From contig CAJHZI010000780.1 in NCBI GenBank assembly GCA_905160935.1, positions 339,001-403,000 of the forward strand: a stretch of DNA of 64,000 bases, written 5' to 3'. The notes below the pieces were generated by a model. That model was not told where the DNA came from and searched no databases. It was given only the letters and a program-made list of their open reading frames with translations. Within the stretch, counting starts at the first letter, position 1; each line of letters begins with the position of its first letter. A program made the position numbers and the translations under genes. This document shows positions 1,246-64,000 of this stretch, piece after piece. Source of the DNA: Enchytraeus crypticus. Taxonomy: Eukaryota > Annelida > Clitellata > Enchytraeida > Enchytraeidae.

Positions 1246-1407
1246 CTAGCTGCCCTTCTCTAGAAATGAAGACAGTTTCTCGGAGGTGGGTGTCTTCATG
1301 CGAATATTAAACTGCTTCAGAGTCTCCTCGAGTCCAATCTGATTACCAGAGAAATACGCCGCCACAGCATTGTGAAACATCAGCAGCTGCTTGTGCATCA
1401 CCTTCAC
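1246..1407 (-). CDS. ARFIP: ARFIP coding exon 6 with stop
   Basis: It encodes [19 protein letters not shown]...[15 protein letters not shown]...LEKGS and stops with TAG at 1246-1248, matching the family C-terminus. The acceptor is GATGCAG; the motif GCAG/GTGAAGGTGA is repeated many times upstream. Confidence 0.95.
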
Positions 1408-4400
1408 CTGCATCATTCAATCAATCAATCAATCACCTTCACCTGCATCATTCAATCAATCAATCAATCACCTTAACATGCATCAATCAATCAATCACTA
1501 TCACCTGCGTCTATCAATCAATCAACTTCATCTGCATCAATCAGTCAATCAACTTCATCTGCATCAATCAGTCAATCAATCACCTTCACTTGCGTCAATC
1601 AATCAGTCAATCAATCACCTTCACCTGCGTCAATCAATCAGTCAATCAATCACCTTCACCTGCGTCAATCAATCAGTCAATCAATCACCTTCACCTGTGT
1701 CAGTCAATCAGTCAATCAATCACCTTCACCTGCATTATTCAATCAATGAAATGTTAATCAATTTATAGAAAACACTATGCAGGTACTCTACTGATTAGTT
1801 AATCAATGATTTTAGATGATTCGTGAATCACAACATTAACCTGTCCACTAGCCTGCCCAATCAATAAATCAATCAAATCAAATTTGAGTTGATAAATCAA
1901 CTGACAAGTCAGCGGGTATTAGCGGATTGAAAAGTTCACAAAATCCAAAGGTGGCTATCCCCTGGATAAACTTGTCGATTTCTAGCTATCGGAACGTCAT
2001 AAATTGGCCATAAATCAATCAAACTGACGTAGACAAGTAACAAATAGTAGGACAGAAAATAATAATGGTTTAACGTCCGTTTCCTCATACAAGGATGATG
2101 TCAGGAACGTCCCCCCATCACATGTCACAACAAATCGATTCACCCCAAACGATTTGAAAAAACAAACACGTGCTGAGTAGAAATAAAAGATAAGTATGGC
2201 ATACTCTGTTCTCGTCCAGAAACTTGAGTTTGATGGCCACGTCTCCACGCAGCTTCTCGTATCTCTCTTTGGACTGCTTGTAGCGCGCCTGAGCGTCATA
2301 CAGGCGCTGACTGACAGATCTGTCACCCCCCGAGCCTGTCAGAGCCTCTAGGTCAGCTCTGTATGCGTCGTACTCTATCCTGAGCAATCAATCAATCAAT
2401 CAACCAGTATCAATCGTGGAGCCTGTCAGAGCCTCTCGATCAGCTCAGTATGCATTGTACTCTATCCTGAGCAATCAATCAATCAATCAATCAGTATTAA
2501 TCGTGGAGCCTGTGAGAGCCTCTAGATCAGCTCTGTATGCGTCATACTCTATCCTGATCAATCAATCAATCAATCAGTATCAATCAAACAATCAATCAGT
2601 ATCAATCAATCAATCAGTATCAATCAATCAATCAATCAATCAATCAGTATAGCTGCTTAATACTACATCTATCAATCAATCAGTAGAGCTGCTTAATAAT
2701 CCATCAATCAATCTATGAGCAAAGCTGCTTAATACTTCAACAATCAATCAATCAGTAGAGCTGCTTAATAATCCATCAATCAATCAATGAGCAAAGCTGC
2801 TTAATACTTCAACAATCAATCAATCTTCGAAGCTGCTTAATACTACATCAATCAATCAATGAGCATAGCTGCTTAATACTTCAACAATCAATCAATCTTC
2901 GAAGCTGCTTAATACTACATCAATCAATCAATCAGTCAGGCTGCTTAATACTACATCAATCAATCAATCAGTCAGGCTGCTTAATACTACATCAATCACT
3001 CAGTCAGGCTGCTTAATACTACATCAATAAATCAATTAGTCTATCAGTAAAACTACATCAATCAATCAATTAGTCTATCAGTAAAGCTTGTTAATACTCA
3101 ACTCTAATCATTCAGTCAATTACAGCAAAGATTGCTTAATACTCAACACTAATCAAACAATTATTGTAAAGTGGCATAATAATCTAAGACATGCATAAGG
3201 TGTAGCGTTGTGAAAGATAAGCCTTAAACTGAAGGGGTTAACTTGTTGATCTATGGTATGACAGCAGAATGAGCATGACCCCTTGACCATGTACCATAGC
3301 AGCATGGACCAGTCATTTGGCTGAACACTAGAAAGAGGGTATAGTATTCTATCAGAATCAATAAATTACTGTTAAGTTCTATCAAACCACATTCTAATCA
3401 ATAAATTACTGTCAAGTTGTATCATACCCTATAATCAATAAATTACTGTCAAGTTGTATCATACCCTATAATCAATAAATTACTGTCAAGTTGTATCATA
3501 CCCTATAATCAATAAATTAATGCAAATATGTCATGCCTATTAAGGTTTGTTAAATGACAAAAGCACTGTGGCCAACGACATTACTAAATGCCTTGTAAAC
3601 AACAGCTAGTGAAAATCCACAGCAAAATTCATCCATAACCACGAAGATTAAAAATTACGACGCAGGCGCGAACTAACCGAGCATTCTCGTAAGTTTTTAC
3701 AGTTAGCAGGGTGTCGGTAATCGTCTTATTGCACAAAGTGTTCAGAGTTGAAGTGAACATGTTTAAAGCTCCTGCAATCAATCAATCAATCAATCAATTA
3801 ATAAATCAATCAATCAATTAATAAATCAATCAATCAATTAATCAATCAATTAATTAATCAATCAATGAGCGAAGGGATCATTCAATAGCTACAATTATAT
3901 TATAATAAGACAGTTAACTAAGTCAACAAATCAATATTTACTTAAAGCTTTGCAAATCCTGCTGAGTGATTGATACAGCACTGACAGGTGATGACAGTGA
4001 TTGAAGAAATAGACAGACTGACTTCTGATAAACAGAAACAAAGATTATAAAAAAAACAATCAGCAACCAATCTATTGATTTATCTTGTGATTTATCTATT
4101 GATTAACATATCGATTGATCTGTTGATTGATCTATAGATTGATCTATTGACTGACTGACTGACACACTGACAGACTCACTCATTAATGTCTCTCCGTTGC
4201 GTGCGAGCACTTTCTGTGTCTCGCTGTTGTACGAGAACTCTTCTCTCAGCTCAGGGTTCTTCTGAGACATATCGCCAAACACGTCCCCAAGAGCTTTCTG
4301 GGTCTGCAGAGCACGATGGAAGTGCAGCGTCAGAGCCTGCGCTAGGTTCAGCACGTTGACGTACTTCTGCTGCGTGTCGCGCAGGTCTGCTATCTGAGCC

Positions 4401-5495
4401 TCCAACTCTGCGTCCACCGTGCGAGACGCTCGACCCAGCCGCTCTGATACGAGCTGACGAGTGACCTGCGGCAGATATTAACTCAATTTATTAACTTACT
4501 TTTCACCAATTAATTTTAGCAAATAATTTCAAACAAAAAAGACACTGACAAATAAACAATAGAACCAATAAAAATCGACAAACAGAAGACAAACCTTGTA
4601 GGTGCTGAGCGACCACTCTCGCAGGTCGTCCAGCACAGAGCTCGTCAGCGCAGGATTGGTCGAGGAGGGAGTGGGAGGAGCCGAGTGCCTGGAGAGGCGG
4701 GGCCCCGCGTCTCTGCTCGTCTCTGGGCTAGATAGCGACACGCTGGACATCGCTGTACAGCGTCGAAAACATTACAGTAATAATAATAATAGTAATAATA
4801 ACAATAATAATAATAACCATAATAATAATAATAATAATAATTAATTAATTAATTAATAACAATAATAACAATTAGAGTGCTACAGTCATCAATGACAAGC
4901 ACTATTGTGTCAAAATCGGAGAGCACAAAAAAATGTACTGAAATATAGTCACAAAAATTACAGCGATGAAATAGTGTCAGAAAAATTTCAGTACTAATAG
5001 TGTCAAAAAAATTACAGTACTTAAATATAATCACAAAATTACAGTACTGAAATAGTATCACAAAATTACAGTACTGAAATAGTATCACAAAATTACAGTA
5101 CTGAAATAGTATCACAAAATTACAGTACTGAAATAGTATCAGAAAACTTACAGCACTGAAATAGTATCAGAAAACTTACAGTACTGAAATAGTATCAGAA
5201 AACTTACAGTACTGAAATAGTATCAACAAAATTACAACACTTAAAGAGACTATTAACTGATCGTAAATCTTTTCTATATTTGGAGGCATAAATAAACCAC
5301 AAGTTGATACTAACTTGAGTGTTGTTCGGTCGCTGCCTTATCCAAGCCACTCATCGATACACTCGGCCTTGCACCAGAATATACCATGCCCGTCGCCGGA
5401 CCTAATCCAGAATCTTGTCTCTCTGATCCGTTCCCATCATATGCAGCGCTCATTCCGTGAGATGAATCGTTGCCATTGGTATACGTACCAGCCAT
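1246..5495 (-). CDS. ARFIP: Arfaptin (ADP-ribosylation-factor-interacting protein), complete gene
   Basis: Six coding exons on the minus strand splice into 351 aa: 5315-5495, 4595-4752, 4180-4465, 3678-3771, 2205-2379 and 1246-1407. All introns read GT-AG and all phases join. Residues about 114-345 match the arfaptin-homology (BAR) domain: [42 protein letters not shown]-like [29 protein letters not shown] and [17 protein letters not shown] are all family signatures. Family members form crescent dimers that bind Arl1, Arf or Rac1 and curved trans-Golgi membranes. Length fits the mammalian paralogues (about 340-370 aa). The N-terminal 110 residues are Ser/Gly-rich and low-complexity. The start is the only Met ahead of the first junction. 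Introns are loaded with ATCA repeats (TGAT in sense), and exons 5 and 6 have tandem copies of their own acceptors. Confidence 0.95.
1400..1745 (-). repeat. Tandem copies of the ARFIP exon-6 acceptor
   Basis: About nine units read, in sense, TGATTGA..TG(A/C)(T/C)GCAGGTGAAGGTGA: a (TGAT)n stretch, a GCAG and the first 10 nt of exon 6. The unit nearest the gene's 3' end (1407) continues into real exon 6; the others run back into TGAT. Some units have drifted to GCAGATGAAG. Confidence 0.85.
2205..2379 (-). CDS. ARFIP: ARFIP coding exon 5 (BAR domain)
   Basis: It encodes [13 protein letters not shown]...[19 protein letters not shown], the most conserved arfaptin segment. The acceptor is TTGATTGCTCAG, the donor ACAGA/GTATGC. 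Two further copies of the acceptor plus about 50 nt of exon lie immediately 5' in the sense direction. Confidence 0.95.
2380..2660 (-). repeat. Two extra copies of the ARFIP exon-5 start, then (ATCA)n
   Basis: Copies near 2417-2470 and 2503-2556 repeat the acceptor GATTGCTCAG (or GATCAG) plus the first ~50 nt of exon 5, with a handful of substitutions. Between and after them runs (ATCA)n. They have no matching donor, so they look like partial exon duplicates. Confidence 0.85.
2650..3075. repeat. Minisatellite, about 38-bp units
   Basis: About eleven units of AGCTGCTTAATACTACATCA followed by (ATCA)2-4 lie within the ARFIP intron between exons 4 and 5. Units differ by small changes (CTTCAACA, GAGCAAAG). 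Confidence 0.85.
3345..3525. repeat. Minisatellite, 37-bp units
   Basis: Five units of ATCAATAAATTACTGTCAAG followed by TTGTATCATACCCTATA, nearly identical in the last three. Intronic in ARFIP. Confidence 0.85.
3678..3771 (-). CDS. ARFIP: ARFIP coding exon 4 (short BAR exon)
   Basis: This 94-nt exon has no long open frame of its own. Its translation [17 protein letters not shown] and [14 protein letters not shown] aligns with the family stretch AVNFFVSSINTLVTKT...DTLMTVKQYEAAR. The acceptor TTGATTGCAG sits directly at the end of a (TGAT)n tract; the donor is GCTCG/GTTAGT. It bridges exons 3 and 5 in phase. Confidence 0.92.
3775..3866. repeat. (ATCA)n / (ATTA) tract abutting ARFIP exon 4
   Basis: In the sense direction this is (TGAT)n running into the exon-4 acceptor with only GCAG added. 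It illustrates the tract-to-acceptor arrangement seen across the window. Confidence 0.85.
4180..4465 (-). CDS. ARFIP: ARFIP coding exon 3 (BAR domain)
   Basis: The acceptor is CTGCCGCAG. The exon encodes [20 protein letters not shown] through ARNGETLM, the first long BAR helix and the start of the second. It ends with one base at ATGA/GTGAGT. Downstream sequence is a mixed GACT/GATT repeat. Confidence 0.95.
4595..4752 (-). CDS. ARFIP: ARFIP coding exon 2
   Basis: The acceptor is CTGTACAG. The exon encodes [15 protein letters not shown]...[12 protein letters not shown], a Ser/Pro-rich linker running into the start of the arfaptin-homology domain (the ..W.L.TYK pattern). It ends phase 0 at ACAAG/GTTTGT. 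Confidence 0.92.
4775..4860. repeat. (AAT)n / (TTAA)n tract
   Basis: Simple AAT and ATTA repeats, followed at about 4862-4930 by a decayed copy of the dispersed repeat whose tail is TTAGAGTGC (family E). Confidence 0.8.
4985..5245. repeat. Minisatellite, about 27-bp units
   Basis: About ten units of ACTGAAATAGTATCA followed by (C/G)AAAA(C)TTACAGT lie in the first ARFIP coding intron. In sense each unit contains ACTATTTCAG, which looks like a splice acceptor and could act as a decoy. Confidence 0.85.
5315..5495 (-). CDS. ARFIP: ARFIP coding exon 1
   Basis: It begins with the ATG at 5493-5495 and encodes 60 residues ([14 protein letters not shown]...), Ser- and Gly-rich. It ends at CTCAA/GTTAGT, leaving one base to make the Thr codon with exon 2. 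No recognisable domain. Confidence 0.85.
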
Positions 5496-5835
5496 TATGA
5501 AACTAAATGAATAAATAAAATTTTTTGTCGTAAATCATATAAAAAAAATTTATATTTCTAAATCTAATCAAATAATTAAATGGCAATGGAGTCATTGAGT
5601 ATGCATTAGAAAATTGATGAGTCATATTTTTCCAATTCTACTGGTAAGGATCAAAGAAAAGATTAATTGAAACTGACAGGAAATTGAAGCCACTTAGCGT
5701 GAGAGAATCATAGAGTGCCATAGACTCAAGTAGTTATACCTAAAAGTGACAGCAGCAGTTGCAGCACGTACTAAAATAATACTAAAATGACTGTTTGGAA
5801 CTTGATTCCGATTGACAATACTCTTTTTATTTAGA

Positions 5836-6065
5836 ATGCCTCAATAGAGTAGTGGTTAGAAGTGTTAGGTAACGGCATGAAGTTTAAATGACAGATCCTC
5901 AAGTACAGTGAACTCTAGTGGATTCGATTCCCGGTAGCGCAGATCACAGAGTATAATCTTGGACATTCACTGGACTGGTTACATTGATTATGGACTAAAT
6001 TGCCATACAGTTTTAAACGTGTGATATTAACAGTGCTAGATATCAACATAGTTGATCATCCACTA
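5836..6065 (+). repeat. SINE-B copy
   Basis: A tRNA-derived SINE: A-box-like TAGTGGTTAGAAG near 5851, B-box GGATTCGATTCCC at 5920-5932, then a body containing GGACATTCACTGGACTGG and a 3' end GTGATATTAACAGTGCTAG...ATCAACATAGTTG. Four copies are found in this window. Confidence 0.85.
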
Positions 6066-7162
6066 TAATAGTTTCAATGCATCTATTTAAGTTTGATGAC
6101 GATGCCGAACGTGTCCATCTAATTAGGCAAGCAAGTATAATTCAGAGATGCATTTGCTTATAACAGACTGTAAAGATAAAGAAAGAATAAATCATTTTTA
6201 CCTTTAGAGACAATCAATTAATCGATGAATTAAAGAGATGAAAGTAAAATTACAACATTAGTAACAATTTTAATGGTTTTCAATCAAACAACAACATAGT
6301 GGATTCCGTTAACTGTAGATCTAGTCCGGCACGATCCAAATATTTCATCCCAGATAAATTTTTGTCAAGAAATTGTTTTGAATATTGCATTCAATGCATT
6401 AAATATGACGACGTGTGTGTTCCAGTGGAGACTAGCAAGAATAGAGATTTTCCCCAAAAAAATCTAAAGCCTGATTTAAGGAGCCAATATGCACATAAAT
6501 TACGGAATGCCGATTTTGGGAAAAATATTCAATTTAATAATGGCTTAAATCATTAATGATGGTTGAGATCTTTGTCGTTCTTTCATCAGAAAATTTATAT
6601 TAATTATGTCAGCTTGGAATGTTATATTTAGAATAGTGCAGGCTTGTTGGGCTTACTAATCCAAAAAAAGAAAAAAAGAAAAACCTAATAGACTGTGACA
6701 AAATCATACAGGAAGCCTAAAGCCTTGCGGAAGTGTTTATGTTGTGTTGGAGAAAACTGAATCATCATCATCACCGGGTAACAAGAGCAAACTGGGACAT
6801 GACATAACATAACAACAATTTTAATTATTAGAGTGCCATCTATGAAAAATGGTGAGCACTATTGACGCATATCAAGCCATTTTTATAGACCTTTCATAAT
6901 ATGTAGTTGCACCTTTGCACAGATTATAAACAAAGCCAAGGGGCAGTGGTGGTGGGAGTGTGTGGGGAGGGTGTGTGTTTATATTGGCGGTAGGCAATGT
7001 TTAATACAATGTTTACTACATGCATGTATTTGTTAGGTATTTCTCATAGAATAAAGAAAAACAGAAAAACCTTATTTTAAGGATCTTTGAAATTTCTTCA
7101 GTATTAACAGAATGACACTAAATAAATTCGAAAGGAAATTATATTTCAAAAAGTAAAAACAC

Positions 7163-7388
7163 GCCGTTATAGTGAAATGATCAACAATATCGATATCTAT
7201 CACTTTTAGTACCAGATGTTTAAACTGTTAGACAATTTCGTCCATTTTCCGTATAACCAATACAGTGAATGTCCGAGGTTTTACTCTCAGATCAGCGCGG
7301 CTGGGATTCGAACCCACGAGGGTTCCATTCACCTCAGGATCTGTCATTTAAAAGTTCATTACGTTACCCCTACGCTATAGAGATATTC
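7163..7388 (-). repeat. SINE-B copy
   Basis: Reverse-complement copy of the element at 5836: B-box TGGGTTCGAATCCC, the CACTGGACTGG-like body (here TTGGTTAT variant) and the ATATCGATATTG tail. The A-box side is at the high-coordinate end (AGCGTAGGGGTAAC). Confidence 0.85.
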
Positions 7389-7884
7389 AACTAATTTTCA
7401 AATGATTATATAATAATGTTGTAATTTACATTTAAAATGTTTAGATTAAAAAATCTTGGGCAGTTGCCTTACATACTTTTATATGAGATATCTTACATAA
7501 TAAATACCTGCCGTAGAACAGTCGACTGTTGAGTGCACAGTGGCGCCCTCCAACGAATAAGAAAATATACAACGCAATTTTTCAAAGTAAACAAGTTTTA
7601 GGAAAGGTCTATTATAATGAGATATGAAATCTACGACTAGAATGATACGTGTTACAAGTCTCACTACTGCCTGAGCCAGTATGTTCAATTAAGTAAAAAA
7701 AAATCAAATAAATAATTCTTTATTCTATTAGTGAAGTTAAACTTAGAAGAAGTTAAGTTAAGCTATGAAAATGTTAAATCTATTAGACTAGTACTATAGT
7801 AGACCATTACAACGTATCAACTTATCTTTGGACCTTAGAATAATAAACATATTTTATAGTTCTGCTCTAGATCTGGACTGATTT

Positions 7885-8010
7885 TATGTATTTTGAAATG
7901 TTTCGCCGTTTTGGGTCTTCTATTTGCTCACCTGCTTGGATTTGACTCAATAGTGCTCGATGTTATCGTACACGCCAGTGACATTCTAATTGTGTTACGC
8001 TATGTTATGT
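7885..8010 (+). repeat. Dispersed repeat family E
   Basis: Contains TTTGCTCACCTGCTTGGATT, CAATAGTGCTCGATG and an ending CATTCTAATTGTG that runs into a TTATG repeat. The same order recurs at 15538, 19985, 23015 and 23642, so this is the 3' end of an interspersed repeat. Confidence 0.7.
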
Positions 8011-8115
8011 TAAGTTGTGTTATTTTATGCTATTTTATGGTATGTTATGTTATGTAATGTTATATTATGTTATGTTATGTTTTGTTATGCTATATTATGT
8101 TATATTTTTTGATGT
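8010..8115 (+). repeat. (TTATG)n microsatellite
   Basis: Degenerate TTATG/TTATA pentamers directly after the family-E repeat, most likely its expanded tail. Confidence 0.85.
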
Positions 8116-9702
8116 TATGTTATTTAGTATCTCAGTAAAAGAAAATCTAAGGACACCATTAAACAAAGAACGAAACAACTTTAGACTGTGGAATAAGAAT
8201 TTTGCGAATTTTATCATTATTGTAGAAAAATTTAGAAAATTAGAGAGTTCAAAAATTGTCTCATTTAAATTTATCTGAGAGACAGAGATGCTTTAAAGAA
8301 CTTATTAATTGTTAGTTAATGAAAGTTGTGCTGCTGATAGGAAATGATTATCGGAAGAAACTGTGAACTGCTTAATATTTGAAGCGAGAAACTCTTCTAG
8401 TAATTTCGTTGGCCATTGTTCAACAATAGTCTAATCAATACCTATTTTTATCTGTAAAATAAATAAATAAATACTCAGAGTATTTATTAGCGATAGAGAC
8501 AGTGTCATTTAACAATATTTTAGTTGATTATATCGCAATTCTATCATACAACTGGCTTTAAACGAGAAGTTTAAGTATTGTTGACTCTGCTAAAGTCTAA
8601 AATTAGACTTTAGTTATACGCGAATTTGCGAGATTATTTTGTGACCCATCTAACTAAGCCTTAGAGTTGCCGCGGTGATCAACAAATATATTGTAGGTCG
8701 GTATTTATTCCTGCGTGTTCATATATTTTGTTGATTGTGTAATGTGTTTGTCTGTTTGATAATGTAACGTTTTAGTAGGTTTCAGAATTATTCTGCTATT
8801 TCTCACCAGCTTTGAAGTTTTGAGAATATATTGCAAGAATACAAAACTCTCAACTCGATCTACTTCAATTGAACATTCGAAGAGAGATGGATATACATTT
8901 GAACTGTGGACTTTCTGATATGAATTTCAGCGTTCATTTCTCTAAGGAAGGAACTGTCATATCATATTGATCAGATCGGGACTACTATTTGAGTTATATC
9001 TTGGATAATACGTCGTGATCTCCGACCCTAGAATATTAAGCATTCTGTAATATTTAACGGTGGTTTAGAAATGGCAAAATGTTGCGTATAGTCTTTAAAC
9101 TGCATCAAATCGGCGTAACATAGAGTAGTACTCTAGGAGTTTAGCTGAAGTTGTAAAAGTTAAATATTTGAGCGTACTATCAGTTTGCGTATAGGTTCAG
9201 TCGTGTAGGTTAATAAATTTGAAGTAATTAGCTAGTTAGAATATTGAAGCTCAGTGCTATATATTGCAATGATTCCATTGAGTCGTATATATAAGAATTT
9301 GTAAGTAGAAATCTCGAGTTGATATGTAAGCTACTGTAGATTATGTGTTTATATGATATTTTGTATGTATCTCTGTGAATACTTGTTTCACTTCGTCTAA
9401 ATCTCTTTGTTTCTTGACCTCTGTGTGTAATTTTCTAAAGCTAAAGACTGGAAACTAGACAGATATAGAGTATATATCAAATATACTATATATAGTATAT
9501 TTGATTATTATAGTTTGCATAGTTAAATTTATTAGATTAATAATAGTTTATTACAGTGAATAGGCTGATTTTTGTCTTGAAAGCATGTCGATAATGGAAT
9601 GAACATTGGATATGAACTCTGTACCTACTGACCCACTGTCGGACAACTTGCCGACATGCTACCTGCATAGGCCAATACTACCAGCATAATCAACATGCTA
9701 CC

Positions 9703-9815
9703 AGCCCATTTATGCAGATCAGTATATGCGGGGTTCAAATTCTGGGCTCGCCCTTCACTGACATCTCTTTCGAGTGAGGAAACTGATGTTAACATTAGCT
9801 TTACCAGCTTTTACA
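9703..9815 (+). repeat. SINE-A copy, 5' part damaged
   Basis: Starts in the anticodon-arm side (GATCAGTATATGCGGGGTTC, B-box) and runs through GGGCTCGCCC and the GACATC block to ACATTAGCTTTACC. Upstream (9620-9700) are two related scraps with GACAACTTGCCGAC. Confidence 0.8.
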
Positions 9816-10159
9816 GAGTGTACATTGAATCTTGTTAGCGATAAACTGATAGTAGCTAGTATAAATTAAATAATGTGTAATAAATAATATATAAAATAAT
9901 AAATGTAATAACTAAATATGAATATTGTTCAGTAATCTGCTATGCAGTACAATGCTTTACTAGCTACATAGTTCCCATTTAACTCCTTCACAGGAACTAA
10001 CTATTCTTTATCTTGCTTTCTATAGAATCAGTTAAATGATTTTTATTTAATTTTACTATATTTTCAATAGATGTAAGATGTAATCCTGAAATGCCCTACC
10101 AGCATTAGACCACATTGTACTTTATATTTAGTTAAGCAGAAAATGCTTTAAAAAGTAAA

Positions 10160-10390
10160 CACGCATTATAGTGACTAATCAACTAGTTGATATCTATCAC
10201 TTTTAAAACCACATGTTTAATCCGTTAGGCAATTTAGACCATTTTCTGTATAACCAGTCCAGTGAATGTCCGAGATTTTACTCTCAGATCAGCGCGGCCG
10301 GGATTCGAACCCACGAGGATTCAATTCACCGCAGGATTTGTCATTTAAAACTTCATGACGTTACCCCTACGCTATTTAGACATTCTAAAT
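10160..10390 (-). repeat. SINE-B copy
   Basis: Reverse-complement copy with B-box TGGGTTCGAATCCC (10302-10315 area) and the tail ATATCAACTAGTTG. Very similar to the copy at 7163. Confidence 0.85.
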
Positions 10391-11225
10391 GATTTAAATA
10401 TTGTCTATTATGCTTTGTCTATTTTGAGAAACTCTCTGTTATTATTCTAGCCATATTGCTGTTGAGACTTGTGTGCAGTTTGTTGTAAATATTGAAATGT
10501 TTGTGTAGTGGTTTCAGGCGGAGGAACGAGGGAGCTCTGTTTGTTTTTGTGAGAGCAGGTTCTGTTGACTTTTGCACTACCAGGTTAGAATTTTAGTATT
10601 TTAAGTACTGGGCTCGTTGACGCAGATCTGTGGCGTATAGATTAAAAGATTCGTGTTCATATTTGAATGGAGTTGCCTAGAATAGGAGAATTATGTATTG
10701 CTCGCAGATGCGATGATGTGTAAGAGGTGACCAAACGGAATCTGAAAAAGAGAAGCCCATTGATTAACATATCTCCATGCTAAAGACCCATTAGATGAGC
10801 TTGGATAAAAATGAGAGTTTTTTGTAATTTTATTAAAATATAACATAATATTATGACATGTTCACTTTTCTGGCTGCCGAAAAATTGTAATGTCTTGTGA
10901 ATCAGAGATTTAATTGTGGTTTTTTTCTGTACGTCTGCCAAGTGCTAGATCGAGTTAATTGAGACATCGTTTGGATTGTGCTGAAACGCATATATCTGAG
11001 CATTTGATTGGATATTTGTTTATAAAGCTCATTGATTGTAATGCATATTGTGCGCACATACGTTCATAATGTTTCTAGCCATTGCTGGATTCTTGTTTGT
11101 CACTCAAGACCTCTGACATAGACATCTGATTAGATAACCTCCTGGTATGCTGATAATATATTATCAGCTTTTTATCTTGTTTATATTTTAATGTTTGTAT
11201 ATTCTTGCGTGAGAGGATTGGAGTA

Positions 11226-11440
11226 AGTCTATTCGTATCCTGACCCTGTGTTAAACTGGGATTTTAGGGATGATGATGATGATGATTTTATATTTTTACT
11301 TGTCTCTCTCTTAGTGCACTGCCTACTGGCAGGTCCATGGTATATATTACATAAAGCCTCCACTCTTCTCTGTCTTCTGCTCTCGTCTTCATTTTCACAT
11401 ATGAGTGGGTCTTTAAATCATCTAACATACCTAATCGTAC
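11226..11440 (-). mobile_element. LINE 3' end with ATC-repeat tail
   Basis: Read on the minus strand this gives the last codons of a LINE ORF2 (a pattern like DMKRK..DREEWRR), a TGGACCTGCCAGTAGGCAGT stretch around the stop, a short 3' UTR and (ATC)n followed by CCTAAAATCCCAG. Related tails are at 12537, 42718 and 56418; related ORF ends at 54455, 55490 and 59195. It ends about 40 bp before the AKAP17A acceptor and opens a false in-frame N-terminal extension there. Confidence 0.6.
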
Positions 11441-11493
11441 TTACTTGTAACACTCCCTATATTCTCTGTTCTCTACAGCTCTGGTGTCTGCAG

Positions 11494-12264
11494 AAGATGT
11501 CGTTTGGAGTGTGCAGCGACACGTCGGAGGCGGTGCCGCTGTTTGAGCCGCAGGGTCTCTTCCTCAAGCCCATCGCCAAGCTGCACATCAGCGTTCAGCT
11601 GCCGGCCCTCAAGAACCCCGGCAACTCCATCTCCAACTGGGAGGTGATGGAAAAGCTCAAGAAGATGATCAAGCCCGACACATTTCTTGTCCTCAAGGTC
11701 GCCAAGAGTACCCTGGAGTTTGTCCGCTTTGAGGGCGAGGTAGAGAACAAGAGCAAGCTCAAAATTCACATTTCCAATCTCGACGGAAAGACGATAAAGC
11801 TCAGCGGATTTCCGGATGCACTGAAAGTTCGAGCCGCCGAAGCGAAGATTCCGTTTCCGACGCGGCACGACTGGGACTCTTTCTTCAGAGACGCCAAGAA
11901 CATGAACGAGCTGAACCCAGGTGAACGACCGGACACCATACACATAAAGGACCTGCCTTGTCGCTGGTTCTCCAGCAAGCGAGACAAAGAACGGGACGTT
12001 CCCAGCGAGTTTATTGTTCGCAAGGTTTTTGAGTCGTTCGGAGAAGTGCGCTGTATGGACATTCCGATGCTGGATCCATACCGTAAAGAGATGGGACAGA
12101 ACAGAAGCGCCATTCAGACGTTCAGCTTTGGGCAGGATTTTCTGTTTGAGACTTACATACAGTTCTCAGAGTACATGGGTTTTGTTAAAGCGATGGCAGC
12201 GCTGAAGGGAATGAAGCTGATGTATAAGGAGGATGAGGATAAGGCGTTGACGGCTGTTATACGG
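11494..12264 (+). CDS. AKAP17A: AKAP17A coding exon 1
   Basis: An acceptor (GTCTGCAG at 11493, or CTCTACAG at 11478) precedes AAG-ATG; coding starts at 11497. It encodes 256 residues including the whole conserved N-terminal domain and RRM-like region, ending at ATACGG/GTATGC in phase 0. GC content is clearly above the flanks. Confidence 0.93.
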
Positions 12265-14586
12265 GTATGCGATGTTTTTATGCCTCGCGCTGGGTTAAGT
12301 TATGTAGATGTGCTGTCTATAAGTTTATGCACTATTTATCAACATGTTTATACAAATTGTCATACGATGAATGTCTATAGATATCTTAATGCCTCAATGG
12401 TTTGTCGTTTAGTTTTGCTTTATAGTAATAACTCGTTTAGGAGTTGTTACCGATTTGCAATTTTTTCCATGTGCCTTGGAGATTGACTGATGGCTGATAT
12501 GATGTAGGACAGAGAGGATTTGAAACAGTCTATAATAGATTCGTGTCCCGACCCTAGTTAAACTGGGATTCAAGGCAAGAATGATGATGATGATGTGTCT
12601 TGGTGTTTTTATATGTTTTTTTGTGTTACAAAGTGAGTGCTTGATTGATTGAATGATTGGCAGGTGGACTTTGACAAGACGAAGCACCTGTGTGACATGA
12701 TGATAGAGAAGAGGAAACAAGAGAGAGACAGCCTGATACGATTAGAGAGAGAGAGAGAAGAGAGAGTGAGGAGAGAGAGGGAGCAAGAGGATCGACGTAG
12801 GGAAGACGAAAAGTAAGCAATTTAATTTATACGCTAGCAAAGTCACTTGATTAATTGATGAACTCTGATTAATTGATGTTAGTATTTAAAAACAGTTACT
12901 ATGACTTGACTTTGAGCAGAGTGACCAAGGCTTAGAAACATGATTAGTCTATCGGGCACTGATTACACATCAAACGAACAACACGTGTGTTGGTGTGGTT
13001 ATATGTGTAGACGCCGAATAGAGCAGGAGGAGATGGAGAGAGAGAAGAAGAGAGAGGAGAAGGTGAGGAGAAGGGAAGATAGGAGGACAGAGAGAGAGGA
13101 AAGGAGAAGACTGGCTAAGCTTGAAAGAAAGAGAGCAGAGGAGGAGAGACAGATGCAGCAGAGAATAGCGATTGAGGAGAGGAAGATTCTGATAGCGCAG
13201 AGAAAACTGGAGACAATACGGCTTCTCTCTGATCTATTCAGTCGCATCAAGGTAAGTGTGCATGTGTGTGTATACATGTGTGTGTATGTGTGTGTACATG
13301 TGTATGTGTGTGCACATTTGTGTGTGTATGACTGATACTCTCCTATCTATTCAGTAACAGAAAGGTATGTGTGTATATGTGTACATGTGTGTGTGTATGT
13401 GTATTGTACATGCGTGTGTGTGTGACTGATACTCTTTGACCTATTCAGTCACATCAAGGTAAGTGTGTCTATTTATTTTAGCATAAGTTGCAGTCTTTCA
13501 ATTTTTGTATATCTATCTGTGACTGTTTGGTGTCCTTTGATTTTAGTGCGTTTTATTAAAGTGTTAATTGCTCTGCAGCTATATTTATTTCATTTCAGGG
13601 TCTGGAAAATTTTATCCATCATAATAATTTATTCCTGCAATTCGCTAATGTCCTTGAAGACCGTCAATATGTGAAAAGTGAATGATCCAGATTCTACAAG
13701 AGCTTAAACTGTAATTGATTGGTTGATCGACTGATTTTTTGATCGACTGATTGATTGATCGACTGAATGATTGATTAATCAGGTGTTAAAACAGAAGAAG
13801 GAGGTGGCGCGGAGAGATAGTTGGAGGAGGAGCGGAGGAAGCAGGTGGAGCTGTGATTGATTGATTGATCGCCTGATTGATTGATCGACTAACTGATTGA
13901 TTGATCAGGTGTTAAAGCAGCAGGAGGAGTTAGCACGGAGAGAGAGGGAGTTGGAGGAAGAACGGAGGAAGCAGGTAGAGCTGAGATTGATTGATTGATC
14001 GACTGATTGATTGACTGATCAGGTGTTAAAGCAGCAGGAGGAGTTGGTGAGGAGAGAGAGAGAGAGTTGGAAGAAGAACGGAGGAAGCAGGTGGAGCTGT
14101 GATTGATTGATTGATCGACTGATTGATTGATTGATTGATTGATCAGGTGTTAAAGCAGCAGGAGGAGTTAGCACGGAGAGAGAGGGAGTTGGAGGAAAAA
14201 CGGAGGAAGTAGGTGGAACTGTGATTGACTGATTGATCGCCTGATTGACTGATTAACTGACTAATTGATCGACTGATTGATTGATTGATCAGGTGTTAAA
14301 GCAGCAAGAGGAGTTAGCACGGAGAGAGAGGGAGTTGGAGGAGGAACGGAGGAAGCAGGTGGAGCTGGAGCGAGAAAGACAGCTGGAGGAAGAGAGGAAG
14401 AGGATAGAGGAGGAGCGGAGGAAGGCGGAGGAGTTGCTGCAGCAGGAGAAGGAGTTGAGAGCTAAGATCCTGCGCAACATTAAGCTGCTAGAAGAGAAAC
14501 GATCGGAGCAGCAGCGAGAAGATCTGCGCAAGAAAATCAAAGAGACGACGACGAAGCTAAAGAGCGCTGTTGTCATGAAGAAATGA
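11497..14586 (+). CDS. AKAP17A: AKAP17A (A-kinase anchoring protein 17A / XE7 / splicing factor SFRS17A)
   Basis: Four coding exons (11497-12264, 12664-12812, 13011-13251, 14293-14586) give 483 aa. The N-terminal 256 aa match AKAP17A closely: ISNWEVMEKLKKM, RFEGEVENKS, LDGKTIKLSGF, FPTRHDWDSFFRDAK and an RRM-like fold from about residue 144 (RPDTIHIKDLPCRWF...VFESFGEVRCMDIPMLDPY). Residues 265-480 form a continuous Arg/Glu-rich coiled coil. In vertebrates this is a nuclear-speckle protein that binds PKA RI/RII and affects splicing. The vertebrate protein is about 695 aa; this one stops after the coiled coil, so the described RII-binding and Arg/Ser tail are absent or encoded elsewhere. The Met at 11497 was chosen because it follows an acceptor and starts the conserved part; upstream open frame is LINE tail. 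Confidence 0.95.
12537..12600 (-). mobile_element. LINE 3' tail fragment
   Basis: CCTAGTTAAACTGGGATTCA followed by (GAT)n on the plus strand is the reverse of the LINE 3' end seen at 11226. It lies in the first AKAP17A coding intron. Confidence 0.6.
12664..12812 (+). CDS. AKAP17A: AKAP17A coding exon 2
   Basis: The acceptor GATTGGCAG follows a TGATTGATTGAATGATTGG stretch. The exon encodes VDFDKTKHLCDMMIEKRK then an Arg/Glu-rich coil, ending two bases into a codon at GAAAA/GTAAGC. Confidence 0.93.
13011..13251 (+). CDS. AKAP17A: AKAP17A coding exon 3
   Basis: The acceptor is ATGTGTAG. It encodes RRIEQEEMEREKKREEKVR... to IAQRKLETIRLLSDLFSRIK, matching the family pattern LLLAQRNLQSIRLIAELLSR. 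The donor ATCAAG/GTAAGT is repeated twice more downstream. Confidence 0.93.
13335..13470 (+). repeat. Two copies of the AKAP17A exon-3 donor edge
   Basis: CTATTCAGTAACAGAAAGGTATGTGTG (about 13348-13373; split here as CTATTCAGTAACAG and AAAGGTATGTG) and CTATTCAGTCACATCAAGG + TAAGTGTG (13441-13466) copy the real end CTATTCAGTCGCATCAAGG at 13235-13253. (TG)n-rich spacers separate them. Confidence 0.85.
13783..14212 (+). repeat. Four tandem copies of the start of AKAP17A exon 4
   Basis: Copies at 13783-13844 (62 nt), 13909-13974 (66 nt), 14023-14090 (68 nt) and 14147-14212 (66 nt) each begin after TTGATTGATCAG (or TTGATTAATCAG) and copy the first ~66 nt of the real exon 4 at 14293. Each ends at CAG/GTGGAG, CAG/GTAGAG or TAG/GTGGAA, so each could be a small cassette exon. 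Only the 13909 copy is in frame without a stop (22 codons, VLKQQEELARRERELEEERR..); the first and third shift frame by length and the fourth ends in TAG. Confidence 0.9.
14293..14586 (+). CDS. AKAP17A: AKAP17A coding exon 4 with stop
   Basis: After the acceptor TTGATTGATCAG it encodes VLKQQEELARRERELEEERR... through LLQQEKELRAKILRNIKLLE to AVVMKK, then TGA. The stop TGA is itself the first unit of a (TGAT)n tract (14584 on). The family's C-terminal extension is not found downstream. Confidence 0.9.
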   Translation: MLKQQEELARRERELEEERRKQVELERERQLEEERKRIEEERRKAEELLQQEKELRAKILRNIKLLEEKRSEQQREDLRKKIKETTTKLKSAVVMKK

Positions 14587-14700
14587 TTGATTGATTGATT
14601 TATGATGGATTGATTGATTTATGATTGATTGATTTATGATTGCTTGATTTATGATTGATGGATTTATGATTGATTGATTTATAACTGATGGATTTCTTGT
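14584..14700 (+). repeat. (TGAT)n tract beginning at the AKAP17A stop codon
   Basis: TGATTGATTGATTTATGATG-type units start at the stop codon and continue about 110 bp into the 3' UTR. Confidence 0.9.
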
Positions 14701-14949
14701 ATAATTGGTGAGAGGCTATACGATTGAATGAATTATCTTCTGGTTTCTGATTGTTTGGCTGAATGACGGAATTTTTCGAATCAATCCGCTGATTGATTTG
14801 ATGCAGTGATAACACTGTTGGTTTGAAGTTTGTTCTCTGACACTGGCTCAGGTAAATCGCTGATAGGTGTTATAGACGGCAGATTATATAGTAATTTAAC
14901 TGAATCCATACACTTGCAGTCTTTATTTGACAATAATTAGACTTAGTCT

Positions 14950-14990
14950 TAATTGTCTTATTAGACAATTATTGTCTAATAAGACAATTA
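14950..14990. repeat. Perfect 20-bp palindrome
   Basis: 14950-14969 and 14971-14990 are exact reverse complements around a single base. It lies in the AKAP17A 3' UTR or just past it and would form a strong RNA hairpin. Confidence 0.8.
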
Positions 14991-15262
14991 TTGTTGTACT
15001 AAGAGAATTAACATCCGGTTTTGTCGTTCTCAGGTGACGTCAGGAATGGGAGCGGATAGATGCAGTCTGAGTGAGTGTTGTAGAAGGGTTGATTTAAGTT
15101 TAGTAATAGTGTCTCGTTTAATTTACAAGAGTTGCTTTTCGGGTAGAAAGATTTTTATGAGCCAGTGAACGGTGGTCAGTGACTGTGAGTATTGAGTGCT
15201 ATGTACTGAACGATTGTATAAAGACTGTAGCAACGATCACGAGTTGTAATGTGCAGATGAAG

Positions 15263-15268
15263 AATAAA
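15263..15268 (+). terminator. Candidate AKAP17A poly(A) signal
   Basis: AATAAA about 680 bp after the stop, in a GAAGAATAAATGTAAAT context. A second AATAAA is at about 15417. Position is the only support. Confidence 0.4.
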
Positions 15269-15537
15269 TGTAAATATTTGTGTATTTTTAAGTCATTGTT
15301 CTAATGCATATTGTCGCTAGGTAATTTCTATCAGCTGACTGTAGGAGTAGAAAGACTCCTCTGTTGGAATTTCTACTGTTGTACACGTGAAAGAAAACTA
15401 GAATACTTTTGTTTTAAATAAACTTTCTTTTGTAGTTTTCTTAATTTTTATATCCTAGCTTTCCTCCAACACTGTTTCTGCGGATTCTAAGACGTTGCTA
15501 TGATGTTTTAGGCTTTATTAATAATAATAATAATAAC

Positions 15538-15660
15538 AACAGTTAGAGTGGTTCAGTCATTAATGACAGCATCGAGCACTATTGAGTCAAAATCAAACCG
15601 GCGAGCAAAAGGAAAAACGGTGCATATTCCAAAATCCAGAAGAATTTACTTTAGTCCAAA
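15538..15660 (-). repeat. Dispersed repeat family E
   Basis: On the plus strand: AACAACAGTTAGAGTGGTTC, CATCGAGCACTATTGAGTCA, then GGCGAGCAAAAGG; this is the reverse of the 7885 and 19985 copies, ending in a (AAC/AAT) tail. Confidence 0.7.
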
Positions 15661-16002
15661 GTAAAGAGAATTAAAGAAAAAGAGGTTTGGCGCTGGTCGC
15701 AACTCATGGACACCGGAGAAAGACTGCGGATATTTGTCAAGAGTTGGACGGTCGAGTGAAGGCACACTTGTGTCAAAAGCTAGAGGCCATGGGTTCAGAT
15801 ACCTGTCTTTGCTGGTATACCTTGTGATTGCAAGCGGACATTAAACTAGGTTCTATCTAAAACCGGCATGCTTCAGGTTAAATCCCGCTGTCTGTCACTG
15901 ATATGCTATCGGGCAGAATACAGACTTAAAACTCGAACAATTCAAGAAGACACAACCTATTTATAGATGTGCTTTGTGTGTGGTACGACGGTTTGCTGGA
16001 GT

Positions 16003-16118
16003 CAGTGGCGATGTCAACATGATATCCAACCGTTGCTAAGTATGTGTGAGTCAAATCCCGGGCTCGTTCGTCCATGATATCGCTTTCGAGAGATGAAACT
16101 TACGTTAGCATTGGTCTA
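16003..16118 (+). repeat. SINE-A copy, diverged
   Basis: GGAGTCAGTGGCGATGTCAA (A-box side), GAGTCAAATCCCGGGCTCG (B-box side), GATATCGCTTTCGAGAGATG and TTACGTTAGCATTG. All parts are present but diverged. Confidence 0.75.
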
Positions 16119-17084
16119 ATTTTTTTTTCTGAGGTGCACGTTCCCCTGCTAGGGGCCATTATTAGATACTAGGACACCTGTTAGTAAATTACAGGGTGGC
16201 CCAAAAAATCTGACACTTTCCCTAGCTCTCAATTTCCAATTTAAACACTGGTTTTAATTAAGCACTATGCAGTTAAAATATTAATTCGTAAATGACAAAT
16301 AAATTACCAAGATTTTGACCTGATTTCTGTGTAAACTATATAATACAAAAATATAAAATGTACATTTAATAACAGAATCGTCGCTTGGCGCTGTTCTTCG
16401 CAGAGGCACCTAAAACACGCACACTGTAGCGCTTATTCACGATTACATCACCTAATGTCCTTAATCAAGTCACCATTACGTACATGAACACGTATGCACG
16501 TATTTAAATACACAAAATAAAAAATACAAAAAAGCACGTAAATACGTAAGCACTTAAACTAGGCCTATCACGTATATTTAACCATTTAAACCTTTTTGCC
16601 TCATCTTTAATTTAAGCAGAGTTTCCTAGGTAAAGATTACTATGCGGTATGATAGAGGCTTAACCATTTTGAACAGAACAACTTGTTAATGCAGAACTCT
16701 TAGTAACTTAACGTAACCTAACTTAGTAACTTCTTAGGCCTACAGAGCAAGAAAGCTGTGAGTATAATGTGTACGATGAATCTACTTTGAGCAGAAGGTA
16801 AAATAGCGAGATAGAGAAGTGATGTTAAGAGTAACAAAATCAGGGGCTGATCCAAAGAGGGCCTCCCCCCTAGGCCCGCCAATCCTACTCGACGGGCTCC
16901 ATTGCTCAACATGACATACTGCTCTTCGTCTTTATTTTCATAGTTTTCATAGCGATTCTCGTGTCAGAAATTTTTGGATCCGCCCCGGCGGATAGGCCTA
17001 ATAATTGTTTTAATACCGCGTGCTTGTTGAAACACATTTAGAAATGTCCGTACCTGTAAGTACAAAACCTACAGTACAATGTCT

Positions 17085-17310
17085 TAATAGCGAGGGGTAA
17101 CTTCGTGAAGCTTTAAATGACAGTTCCTGAGGTGAATTGAACCCTCGTTGGTTCGAATCCCAGCCGCGCTGATCTGAGAGTCAGATCTCGGACATTCACT
17201 GGACTGGTTACACGGACAATGGACTAAATTGCCTAACGGTTTAAACATGTGGCATTAAAAAGTGATAGATATCAACATAGTTGGTCGTTTCACTATAATG
17301 CGTGTTTACT
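17085..17310 (+). repeat. SINE-B copy
   Basis: Includes AGCGAGGGGTAACTTCGTGA, B-box TGGTTCGAATCCC, GGACATTCACTGGACTGG and GATAGATATCAACATAGTTG. Fragments of the 3' end recur at 17380-17420 and 17525-17570. Confidence 0.85.
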
Positions 17311-17584: not shown

Positions 17585-17593
17585 AGTAGTAGA

Positions 17594-17641
<48 letters not shown>

Positions 17642-17645
17642 TTTA
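17585..17645. repeat. (AAT)n microsatellite
   Basis: About 18 AAT units followed by a shorter inverted (ATT)n stretch. Confidence 0.9.
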
Positions 17646-17695
17646 ATATTGTTATTATTATTATTTTGATATTTTACTAATACTTAATAATAATG

Positions 17696-27745: not shown

Positions 27746-35403
<7,658 letters not shown>

Positions 35404-36609: not shown

Positions 36610-37900
36610 TTCCTCTCTATTGTGATCATACTACGGAGTATCTACAGAATATTAAGTGGGTTCATGTGATTTTTCTGATCCTGACATCTTCGTCTAGATT
36701 AGAAACCAGACGTTAAATTCTTACTAAACGAGAATAAAGCTCTCTTCATATTCGTTACTTCATCTGAAATTCTCGCATATTCCACAAATATAAATTGCAG
36801 TGAATATATATGAACTCGAATAAGGCATAAAGACATACAGTACTGTAATATGCTATTGGACAGAGTTATACAGAGTTTATACAGTTAAATCAGTTGATAA
36901 TGTACTTATACTTCATTTACTGATCTATTTAGAGTCAGTAGAAAATCAACCATAACGTCACAGTTCAAGTCTACGCTTATCTAGAAGAGTTCCACTTGAA
37001 AGCCTACAATAACTCAGTGACCCTAACAACAACCCACAATATAACAGCACATCTCAGTAACCCTAATAACAACCCACAATCTAACAACATCCCTCTAGCA
37101 CCCACTCTTTCAATTAAATGCTCTAGAAATATAACCATAGTAGAATAATAATAATTATAATATAATTAATAATTTAATAAAAATTATAACAGTTTTAATA
37201 ATAATAATAATAGTTATAAATAATAATTACAAATTATAATAATAATACTAATACTAACGTATCAAGTATAAACAGTTCGATTAATTCAATACATTACTTG
37301 TGCATTATACATATCGTTCTTACATCCTCAGTCGTTTAAACCTTAGTAATTAAGTAATTACGGGTCTGTTGAATCAATCAATTAAATCACAATTATCGGC
37401 TCATGTTGCAGCGACTAGCTAGACTGATTCAATTCATTGGCTTTCAGTCCAAAGCACACAGTTCTATAAGTTATCTCTCTCACACGAGCACATAACATCT
37501 TGACTGAGAAACTAGTGGATTACTAGAAAACTGAATGAAACAACTCCATTACGTTCCAGCCTTCAAGCATGAGCACATAAATAACAATATCTAATTAACT
37601 TGTAACACCTGAGAACTCATCAGACCGCTCTGAGCATCCTAATGTTTAATTAACGACGTTCCGTTGCGTTCACTCTTACGTACAACGCTGTTATGTTAAC
37701 TATATCGACATTATCTATAAACAAACTATCTAATGGAAATTCATAGCGAAATATCGTACTCTTACAATACACTTATACATTGTGCACATCGTGCTATTTG
37801 ACGAGGAGGAATTGTGCATAAGACTTTCAATTGATGGGGCTATCAGAGAGAAAGGGTTACCCCCATCCCCTTCACTCAGATAGTACTAAATGTTTACAAT
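36610..37900. other. Spacer between convergent ovo and DNAJC13
   Basis: AT-rich DNA with (AAT)/(TAA) tracts at 37145-37260 and a short duplication AACAACCCACAATATAACA near 37030-37085. No gene seen. Confidence 0.6.
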
Positions 37901-37904
37901 GACC

Positions 37905-38531
37905 TCTAGACGATGACCTATCTGAACTCATGACATTGAAGGAGGAACAATGACCTCTAGACGATGACCTATCCGAACTCATGACATTGGAGGTTGAACA
38001 ATGACCTCTAGACGATGACCTTTCTGAGCTCATGACATTGGAGGCGAACAATGACCTCTACACGATGACCTATCTGAACTCATGACATTTGAGGTGGAAC
38101 AATGACCTCTAGACGATGACCTAATTGACCTCATGACATTGGCGGTGGAACAATGACCTCTAGACGATGACCTGTCTGAACTCATGACATTGGAGGTAGA
38201 ACAATGACCTCTAGACGATGACCTATCTGAACTCATGACATTGGCGGTGGAACAAACCTCTACAAGATGACCTATCTGAACTCATGACATTGGAGGCGGA
38301 ACAATAACCTCTAGAAGATGACCTATCAGAACTCATGACATTGGATGCGGAACAATGACCTCTAGACGATAACCTATCTAAACTCATGACATTGGAGGTG
38401 GAACAATGACCTCTAGACGATGACCTATCTGAACTCATGACATTGGAGGCGGAACAATGACCTCTAGAAGATGACCTATCTGAACTCATGACATTGGAGG
38501 CGGAACAATGACCTCTAGAAGATGACCTAAC
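37905..38531 (-). repeat. 51-bp minisatellite derived from the DNAJC13 stop region
   Basis: About twelve 51-bp units in the 3' UTR. In sense each contains TCATCTTCTAGAGG + TCATTGTTCCGCCTCCAATG + TCATGA, a close relative of the real end TCATCGTCTATGCC + CAATGTTCCTCCGCCAATG + TCATGA at 38532-38560. The 51-nt length keeps frames open (17-codon unit SSDRSSSRGHCSASNVM), giving false ORFs. Confidence 0.9.
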
Positions 38532-63587
<25,056 letters not shown>

Positions 63588-63785
63588 CTACAGAGCAACA
63601 ACAACATTACATGACGTCTGACTGCTTGTTCTATGACCAGTAAAATCAACAGAGCAACAACAACATTACATGATGTCTGACTGCTTGTTCTATGACCAGT
63701 ACAATCAACAGAGCAACAACAACATTGCATAATGTCTGACTGCTTGTTCTGTCACAAGTACAATCAACAGAGCAACAACAACATT
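63588..63785 (-). repeat. Three copies of the DNAJC13 w1 exon start
   Basis: Units of CATGATGTCTGACTGCTTGT + TCTATGACCAGTACAATCAA + CAGAGCAACAACAACATTA; each holds the exon's first ~20 nt (sense AACAAGCAGTCAGACATCAT), but most copies read CATAGAACAAG or TAGAACAAG at the junction. Confidence 0.88.
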
Positions 63786-64000
63786 ACATGATGTCTGACT
63801 GCACTTATCTCATCAAATCTGAAGACTTGATGGGTGTACTTAGAGGGTGCACTTACCTCATCAGACCTAAGACTTGACGGGTGTACTAGAGGGTGCACTT
63901 ACCTCATCAGATCTGAAGACTTGATGGGTGTACTTGAGGGTGCACTTACCTCATCAGATCTGAAGACTTATGGGTGTACTAGAGGGTGCACTTACCTCAT
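63786..64000 (-). repeat. Array of the donor edge of the next upstream DNAJC13 exon
   Basis: Four or five ~47-bp units in sense TCTTCAGATCTGATGAG/GTAAGTGCACCC. The true exon end is probably the unit cut by the window edge (63996-64000 = ATGAG). Confidence 0.85.

Follow-up and report, generated by a model that had tools for sequence, protein, structure and literature searches.

Why should exon edges be surrounded by tandem copies of themselves? The question is raised by a 64,000-nucleotide (nt) stretch of the genome of the annelid Enchytraeus crypticus (hereafter the window, C682:339001-403000 in an assembly of 524 Mb and 802 contigs), in which splice junctions of the genes ARFIP, AKAP17A and DNAJC13 recur in neighbouring arrays, and in which an earlier note had seen repeat birth choosing exon edges. 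We find that arrays of the tetranucleotide TGAT, on the sense strand of these genes, lie in the last stretch of many introns, against the acceptor (3' splice site). The copied edges are probably overshoot of these intron-end TGAT-type repeats, which might serve as a splice signal, and not the work of a process aimed at edges.

TGAT arrays lie on the sense strand against acceptors

Three intron-bearing genes with 33 exons in total were mapped in the window (the earlier note spoke of four unrelated genes and named three). These are ARFIP (minus strand, at the left end inside the window; Pfam Arfaptin), whose mapped protein can be aligned with PDB arfaptin-2 (1i49_A) from residue 27 to 248 of its 251; AKAP17A (plus strand; PF25015); and DNAJC13 (minus strand, ~38.5 kb to the right window end), represented by its C-terminal half only. 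Exons were placed by spliced protein-to-DNA alignment, the first guides being human proteins. The DNAJC13 map was redone with P0001, a full-length database relative (80% identical); the two maps are identical at 46 of 46 interior splice sites, and the second added the exon 1 acceptor at 63587/63588. Among the best 120 of 738 DNAJC13 relatives, the closest are P0001 (80%), Lamellibrachia (72%), Owenia (71%) and Capitella (71%), the named ones being annelids and other lophotrochozoans. The start of AKAP17A exon 4 was set by hand, as one of two in-frame AG options, and the joined frame is open. The rest of DNAJC13, outside the window, provided a held-out set of 25 introns and 51 junctions (five doubtful exons were left out), on which four tests were fixed before analysis.

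Counting TGAT runs of 12 bp or more, we found 1335 bp on the sense strand and 75 bp on the antisense strand of the 30 window introns (26.1 kb), and 13 bp in the 30.4 kb of intergenic DNA scanned. The density in window introns, about 512 bp per 10 kb, compares with 11.7 bp per 10 kb in a fixed-step sample of twenty 10-kb stretches (200 kb) from four large contigs. Twelve of the 30 window introns have a sense run that comes to within 12 nt of the acceptor, ending 3 to 11 nt from it, and four of these runs stop at the terminal CAG itself; a rotation null gave a mean of 1.2 and a maximum of 6 in 20000. The corresponding count for the held-out introns is 6 of 25 (null 0.6, maximum 5), and in none of the 55 introns does an ATCA run end 12 nt or less from the acceptor. 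By position, the last intron quarter holds 66% of TGAT bases in window introns and 76% in held-out introns; the first quarter holds 2.6% in window introns. Sense arrays at acceptors in the window include the following, located by Tandem Repeats Finder (TRF) and by the methods in brackets:

3775..3866, minus strand: (TGAT)n ending 3 nt before ARFIP exon 3 (run scan)
42000..42324, minus strand: TGAT array, DNAJC13 exon 22 acceptor at 41994 (run scan, exon map)
43948..44092, minus strand: TGAT-type array, DNAJC13 exon 20 acceptor at 43945 (run scan)
44617..44755, minus strand: TGAT array, DNAJC13 exon 19 acceptor at 44606 (run scan)
49919..50501, minus strand: TGAT/GATA array with one exon-start copy, DNAJC13 exon 17 acceptor at 49915 (30-mer copies, run scan)
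54745..55034, minus strand: TGAT array, DNAJC13 exon 11 acceptor at 54741 (run scan)
57330..57444, minus strand: TGAT array, DNAJC13 exon 8 acceptor at 57322 (run scan)
58460..58858, minus strand: TGAT array with one exon-start copy, DNAJC13 exon 6 acceptor at 58455 (30-mer copies, run scan)

Past the 5' end of DNAJC13, at C682:426300-462900 (in L011-L014), TGAT runs lie mostly on the minus strand (545 vs 47 bp), an excess that may mark another minus-strand gene.

AG preferentially follows TGAT arrays across the assembly

Arrays that end at 3' splice sites should be continued by AG, which can be examined without annotation over the whole 524-Mb assembly. There, (TGAT)4TGCA is followed by G at 338 places and by A, C or T at 88 (79% G), whereas the strand control, (ATCA)4GCA, is followed by G at 22 and by the other bases at 114 (16%; Fisher P 1e-40). 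In a second phase of the array, CA is followed by G 485 times and by A, C or T 558 times (46.5% G). These counts can be lower bounds and are somewhat inflated by tandem copies, the first 100 listed (TGAT)4TGCAG places being 83 loci; deflating the 338 for such copies leaves P near 1e-93. As for abundance, (TGAT)6 has 11348 overlapping matches in the assembly, and the letter-reversed (TAGT)6 has 259.

Exons lie downstream of the arrays

We then looked at what stands beside 27 TGCAG sites, taken as distinct listed loci in contig order, one per cluster, leaving out an identical duplicate. Flanks of 150 nt were scored for codon usage (training set of 2707 codons); the score is >10 in 20 downstream flanks and in 3 upstream flanks. 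The 27 downstream peptides match 19 Pfam families (E<=0.01), by eye from about ten members of the set; these include kinase, E1 dehydrogenase, Hid1, OB_NTP_bind, MORN, Myb, thymosin, transglutaminase-like and UQ_con. Upstream, 23 of the 27 flanks gave a peptide and one family was matched, OB_NTP_bind, evidently because the peptide at locus L050 repeats the exon start. For an unselected view, we read 140 bp downstream of 16 (TGAT)6 ends, drawn from about 36 array loci in the first 100 listed matches. By eye, about 6 of the 16 abut an exon, one is mostly N and several continue as repeat, and the 13 peptides submitted from them match dynein heavy chain (5e-17), NIF (3e-4) and protein kinase (0.008) in Pfam.

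Exon edges are copied no more than other intronic places

The copies at exon edges are real as an observation, and the earlier description of them is partly confirmed. We called a junction strongly copied when a 30-mer spanning it was matched at 24 or more of its 30 positions within 3 kb. This holds for 13 of 61 window junctions, 9 of 31 acceptors and 4 of 30 donors (60 junctions before the DNAJC13 exon 1 acceptor was added), and some edges are copied 4 to 8 times. Strong copies were found, as described, at the last two acceptors of ARFIP, at the exon 3 donor and exon 4 acceptor of AKAP17A, and at DNAJC13 acceptors 2, 5, 6, 14, 17 and 21 and donors 3, 16 and 20. Elsewhere in DNAJC13 the description stands in part: acceptor 1 has three weaker or gapped copies of 17-22 exon nt, acceptor 10 has a single weaker or gapped copy, acceptor 16 and donor 14 reach only 22/30 and 21/30 at or within TRF arrays, and the one copy present at acceptor 9 lacks the AG. 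At donors 22 and 23, where repetition had also been reported, arrays begin a few bases past the donor and there are no junction copies (18/30, 17/30). The exon beyond the window edge, whose donor was said to be copied, is a real one (contig 403043-403243, with its donor 43 bp beyond the window end and its coding sequence ending in FRSDE followed by gtaagt), and its edge is repeated at 63800-64000. The repeats reported around the DNAJC13 stop are likewise present, the stop codon (38532-38534) being followed by ten exact copies of the surrounding 13 nt, spaced 46-51 bp apart with one double gap.

The significance of these copies depends on how often other intronic positions are copied. We therefore applied the same copy criterion to matched high-complexity intronic AG and GT dinucleotides and found nearby copies at 36% of AG and 33% of GT controls in the window. 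Junction copies do not exceed this background, either in the window (13 of 61 vs 20.9 expected, P(<=13)=0.019) or in held-out DNAJC13 (8 of 51 vs 12.8 expected). TRF arrays reaching 6 bp on both sides span 9 of the 61 window junctions, in contrast to 42% of intron positions; overall, tandem repeats cover 44% of window introns, 15% of window intergenic DNA and 12% of the fixed-step stretches. Since junction copies fall below the control expectation, exon edges are copied at most as often as the rest of the intron, and perhaps less often. The idea that repeats arise preferentially at exon edges thus finds no support in the window or in the held-out introns, with no enrichment of copies at junctions in either, and the surprise attached to it is unsupported; a different pattern, genome-wide and strand-controlled, stands in its place. 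A second suggestion, that the real edge is held while its neighbours multiply, fares better, because the best copy lies on the intron side for 13 of 13 strongly copied window junctions. The arrays at these and other edges, detected by TRF together with the methods in brackets, are:

1397..1747, minus strand: 35-bp array, 9.8 copies, of TGAT units, CAG and the first 11 nt of the ARFIP last exon (30-mer copies)
2332..2576, minus strand: 87-bp array, 2.8 copies, of TGAT run, acceptor and 48 nt of ARFIP exon 4 (30-mer copies)
13252..13472, plus strand: AKAP17A exon 3 donor and 94-bp copies (alignment, 30-mer copies)
13748..14292, plus strand: AKAP17A exon 4 start copies within a TGAT array (30-mer copies)
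37896..38534, minus strand: DNAJC13 stop codon and the 51-bp array after it, TRF 37896-38529 (exon map)
42937..43592, minus strand: DNAJC13 exon 21 acceptor with 60 exon nt, at least 4 copies (30-mer copies)
43594..43810, minus strand: DNAJC13 exon 20 donor, 79-bp copies (30-mer copies)
50983..51141, minus strand: DNAJC13 exon 16 donor copies (30-mer copies)
51200..51656, minus strand: 28-bp array, 16 copies, up to the DNAJC13 exon 16 acceptor, exon end 51203 (exon map)
52418..52682, minus strand: 31-bp array across the DNAJC13 exon 14 donor, exon end 52671 (exon map)
52742..52945, minus strand: 35-bp array across the DNAJC13 exon 14 acceptor at 52762 (30-mer copies)
60144..60416, minus strand: 57-bp array across the DNAJC13 exon 3 donor at 60382 (30-mer copies)
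61300..62905, minus strand: 30-bp x 53 array, TATTG-like on the sense strand, from the 8th base off DNAJC13 exon 2 (61292); three exon 2 start copies lie near and beyond its far end
63590..63802, minus strand: 59-bp array at the DNAJC13 exon 1 acceptor (exon 63433-63587), units with 17-22 exon-start nt (exon map)
63800..64000, minus strand: donor of the DNAJC13 exon beyond the window edge, 47-bp copies (exon map)

Exons beside the ARFIP and AKAP17A arrays were placed as follows:

1246..1407, minus strand: ARFIP last exon, acceptor CAG/GTGAAG (spliced alignment, frame end; matches arfaptin-2 chain 1i49_A)
2205..2379, minus strand: ARFIP exon 4 of 5 mapped (spliced alignment)
14293..14584, plus strand: AKAP17A exon 4, the last mapped (start by hand from alignment)

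The TGA stop that ends AKAP17A exon 4 merges into a TGAT array (14584-14695; TRF from 14583/14584). Outside the three genes, positions 31398-32723 of the window (plus strand) hold an unbroken frame of 441 amino acids with a Methyltransf_35 match (E 0.002) below the curated cut-off.

How intron-end arrays may overshoot into exons

We propose that a TG-rich, AG-free repeat, chiefly sense (TGAT)n, has been built into the last stretch of many introns, reaching the terminal CAG or TAG or stopping some ten bases or less short of it, in the usual zone of the polypyrimidine tract and branch site. Such arrays would slip and recombine, and an exchange in which the array paired with a TGAT-like word lying between a few and some tens of bases into the exon would yield a unit that contains the acceptor and the exon start. 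The gene would stay intact only where the extra units fall on the intron side, and overshoot copies would be tolerated because only the intron is lengthened. The copies carry 8 to 75 nt of exon start. A copy of ARFIP exon 5 departs from the exon at GGTGAT and goes on as TGATTGAT, and the L050 copy departs at GAGAGGT and goes on as GATTGATT; words of this type would allow pairing between array and exon. Of 82 acceptors searched, 26 are accompanied by one or more copies of the first 18 nt of their exon. The AG is kept in 44 of 51 copies, no less than overall identity predicts (79%), so there is no sign of spare acceptors eroding, and since spare edges mostly keep it they could serve as decoys.

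Several observations weigh against this account of intron-end arrays and their overshoot. The microhomology just described is seen in single cases only. Two of the tests fixed beforehand gave a weak result or failed in the held-out set. In the held-out introns the strand excess is modest (421 vs 169 bp, in 7 vs 4 of 25 introns), and overall repeat cover is no higher at their 3' ends than at their 5' ends (P 0.45, 0.57). General 3' crowding of tandem repeats, which in the window takes the form of TRF cover of 67% in the last 100 intron nt vs 37% in the first 100, is therefore rejected as a window-only feature and not claimed. The 200 kb of fixed-step sequence contains only 10 TGAT clusters, most of 12-19 bp, of which three have a coding score >10 downstream, a single one strongly (32 bp, L022); the longest array there, of 81 bp, has no adjacent coding signal. 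At the 27 TGCAG sites, the antisense strand scores >10 in 12 of the downstream flanks and in none of the upstream ones, so the score is a better guide to coding DNA than to the coding strand. Finally, several junction arrays are not of TGAT (those at DNAJC13 exons 1, 2, 3, 14, 16, 20 and 21). The TATTG-like unit at exon 2, the 28-bp unit at exon 16 and the 57-bp unit at donor 3 show that copies have sources besides TGAT.

A possible role for the arrays in splicing

At the mapped acceptors, intron ends are TG-rich and C-poor rather than pyrimidine-rich (C 6% in the window and 9% in held-out introns, over the last 4-24 nt). The branch-site consensus is YTRAY. TTGAT units fit it and (TGAT)n holds no AG, so that a sense array amounts to a branch-like word every four bases on an AG-free path to the acceptor, whereas the antisense form is also AG-free but has no YTRAY word at all. 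The presence of branch-like words on the sense strand only, together with the AG-free path, agrees with the strand and position of the arrays. In TGAT-type introns, the density of YTGAY words between 50 and 12 nt from the intron end is 125 per kb. Against a branch-site role, YTRAY occurs in 15 of the 35 introns that have no TGAT at the acceptor, only slightly more often than in mid-intron windows (32%), and this lends it little support. We suggest, as a reading less likely than not, that (TGAT)n might be a self-expanding splice signal, an array of branch-like words that replaces polypyrimidine tract and branch site in a considerable fraction of introns, grows by replication slippage and thereby sheds spare exon edges.

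A serious rival, to which we assign a little less than an even chance, is neutral seeding, whereby the TG-rich, AG-poor 3' ends of introns seed sense TG-type microsatellites and the array is tolerated but inert. It shares the positional part of our account and differs on function, the last few bases before the AG being sufficient. What makes it serious is that introns without TGAT are also TG-rich at their 3' ends, with GTTG, TGTT and TGTG enriched. The last 4-24 nt of window introns are 47% T, 26% G, 21% A and 6% C, and other TG-type repeats, (TTG)n and (TG)n, are seen at acceptors by eye. Seeding alone, however, leaves the dominance of one tetranucleotide and arrays of hundreds of base pairs unexplained.

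Alternative origins of the copies

The earlier note had also pointed to TGAT/ATCA pairs flanking exons. TGAT does stand at many acceptors and joins some copies to the exon, but its ATCA mate at donors is minor. A pairing of (ATCA)n near the donor with (TGAT)n near the acceptor, bridging the intron, is a doubtful explanation. Mirroring the acceptor TGAT, four of the 55 introns, all in DNAJC13 (one in the window, three beyond), have an ATCA run that begins 5-22 nt inside the donor. Genome-wide, GTAAGT lies within 25 nt of ATCA4 in 220 rows and of TGAT4 in 128, a weak excess that comes to 81 vs 53 loci (P 0.02) among those listed on contigs C1-C391. On the other hand, two of the 55 introns have a TGAT run that begins no more than 25 nt from the donor, and where TGAT stands at the acceptor (18 introns), an ATCA run is also present in just 2. 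Because of this co-occurrence in only 2 of 18, and of TGAT at donors, a general intron-bridging hairpin is unlikely, and we rejected it.

A duplication process or selection specifically multiplying exon edges, the view of the earlier reader, is very unlikely. Many edges are copied, some of them repeatedly, and at 11 of the 83 loci that make up the first 100 (TGAT)4TGCAG places listed there are at least two tandem copies, but copied junctions are fewer than matched intronic controls predict in both the window and the held-out set.

Intron gain or recursive splicing through AG/GT units, each both donor and acceptor, has only a slim chance of being correct. By hand count, exon starts have GT at 5 of 9 strongly copied window acceptors and at 6 of 22 others, which are small numbers, and of the 26 copied acceptors in the larger set just 4 are AG/GT (ARFIP exon 5 is missing from the 26 because its copies carry only 11 exon nt). 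With no clear excess among copied acceptors, this candidate was not favoured.

An origin of the TGAT arrays as the tail of a transposon or intron-making element (introner) is most improbable. Tandem tails and sense orientation would fit, and several introns have interspersed repeats in common; these shared repeats, however, lie at varied places and in both orientations, and comparison of 55 introns and 8 loci revealed no common body abutting the arrays. The candidate was rejected, no element body shared between loci having been seen beside the arrays in that comparison. The interspersed repeats themselves, in introns of DNAJC13, ARFIP and AKAP17A, are roughly 60-280 bp long, many of them 80-92% alike, and occur in both orientations. 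One looks, we presume, tRNA-derived, for which ARAGORN and Rfam found nothing; scans of the 64-kb window for Rfam families and tRNA (ARAGORN) gave no match.

Assembly error as the source or inflator of copies is hardly credible, since hundreds of places, spread over many contigs, show the same signature and the copies have diverged from each other, although L004 and L005 (on C50 and C61) are identical over 3021 bp, perhaps as uncollapsed haplotypes.

Comparison with known systems

Structured introns of fish reportedly carry AC repeats next to the donor and GT repeats next to the acceptor, and are reportedly spliced independently of U2AF2. Fish introns with AC and GT repeats are the nearest known class, and in two later papers such simple intron repeats are held to help splice-site choice (PMC7404189, PMC9508853). 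The likeness lies in a strand-fixed repeat beside the 3' splice site, which is found here. In contrast to the fish introns, the unit is TGAT, it mostly stands at the 3' end alone, and 16 of 18 such introns lack the complementary ATCA. Polyubiquitin genes, as summarized in the abstract, have dual-specific AGGT splice sites in tandem repeats (PMC10809524) and thus resemble our case in the repetition of splice sites within arrays; those repeats are coding and their units used, whereas here the copies are intronic and AG/GT is found at only 4 of 26 copied junctions. Tandem genomic duplication is reported to create introns (PMC4974935); there, as here, tandem copies include the splice junction, but here introns are lengthened. 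Intronic tandem repeats have also been tied to splicing in an abstract on the Caenorhabditis elegans minisatellite CeRep25B, near alternative splicing regions (PMC4039745), and in a review of short tandem repeats near human alternative splice sites (PMC10027321). Those accounts, as far as the abstract and the review passages go, concern other units and alternative splicing and do not describe repeats against the 3' splice site. A literature search judged by titles and abstract openings, with subscription journals mostly outside it, found no report of a TGAT array at acceptors.

Implications

The locus carries a caution: before conspicuous repeats at exon edges are put down to a special mechanism, their background rate in introns has to be established. 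It also provides, in (TGAT)nTGCAG, a strand-controlled and annotation-free mark of acceptors across 524 Mb, which could improve gene calling in this genome. If the arrays are functional, E. crypticus would have a splice signal made of an unstable microsatellite, which would open the effect of slippage on splicing and the origin of spare splice sites to study.

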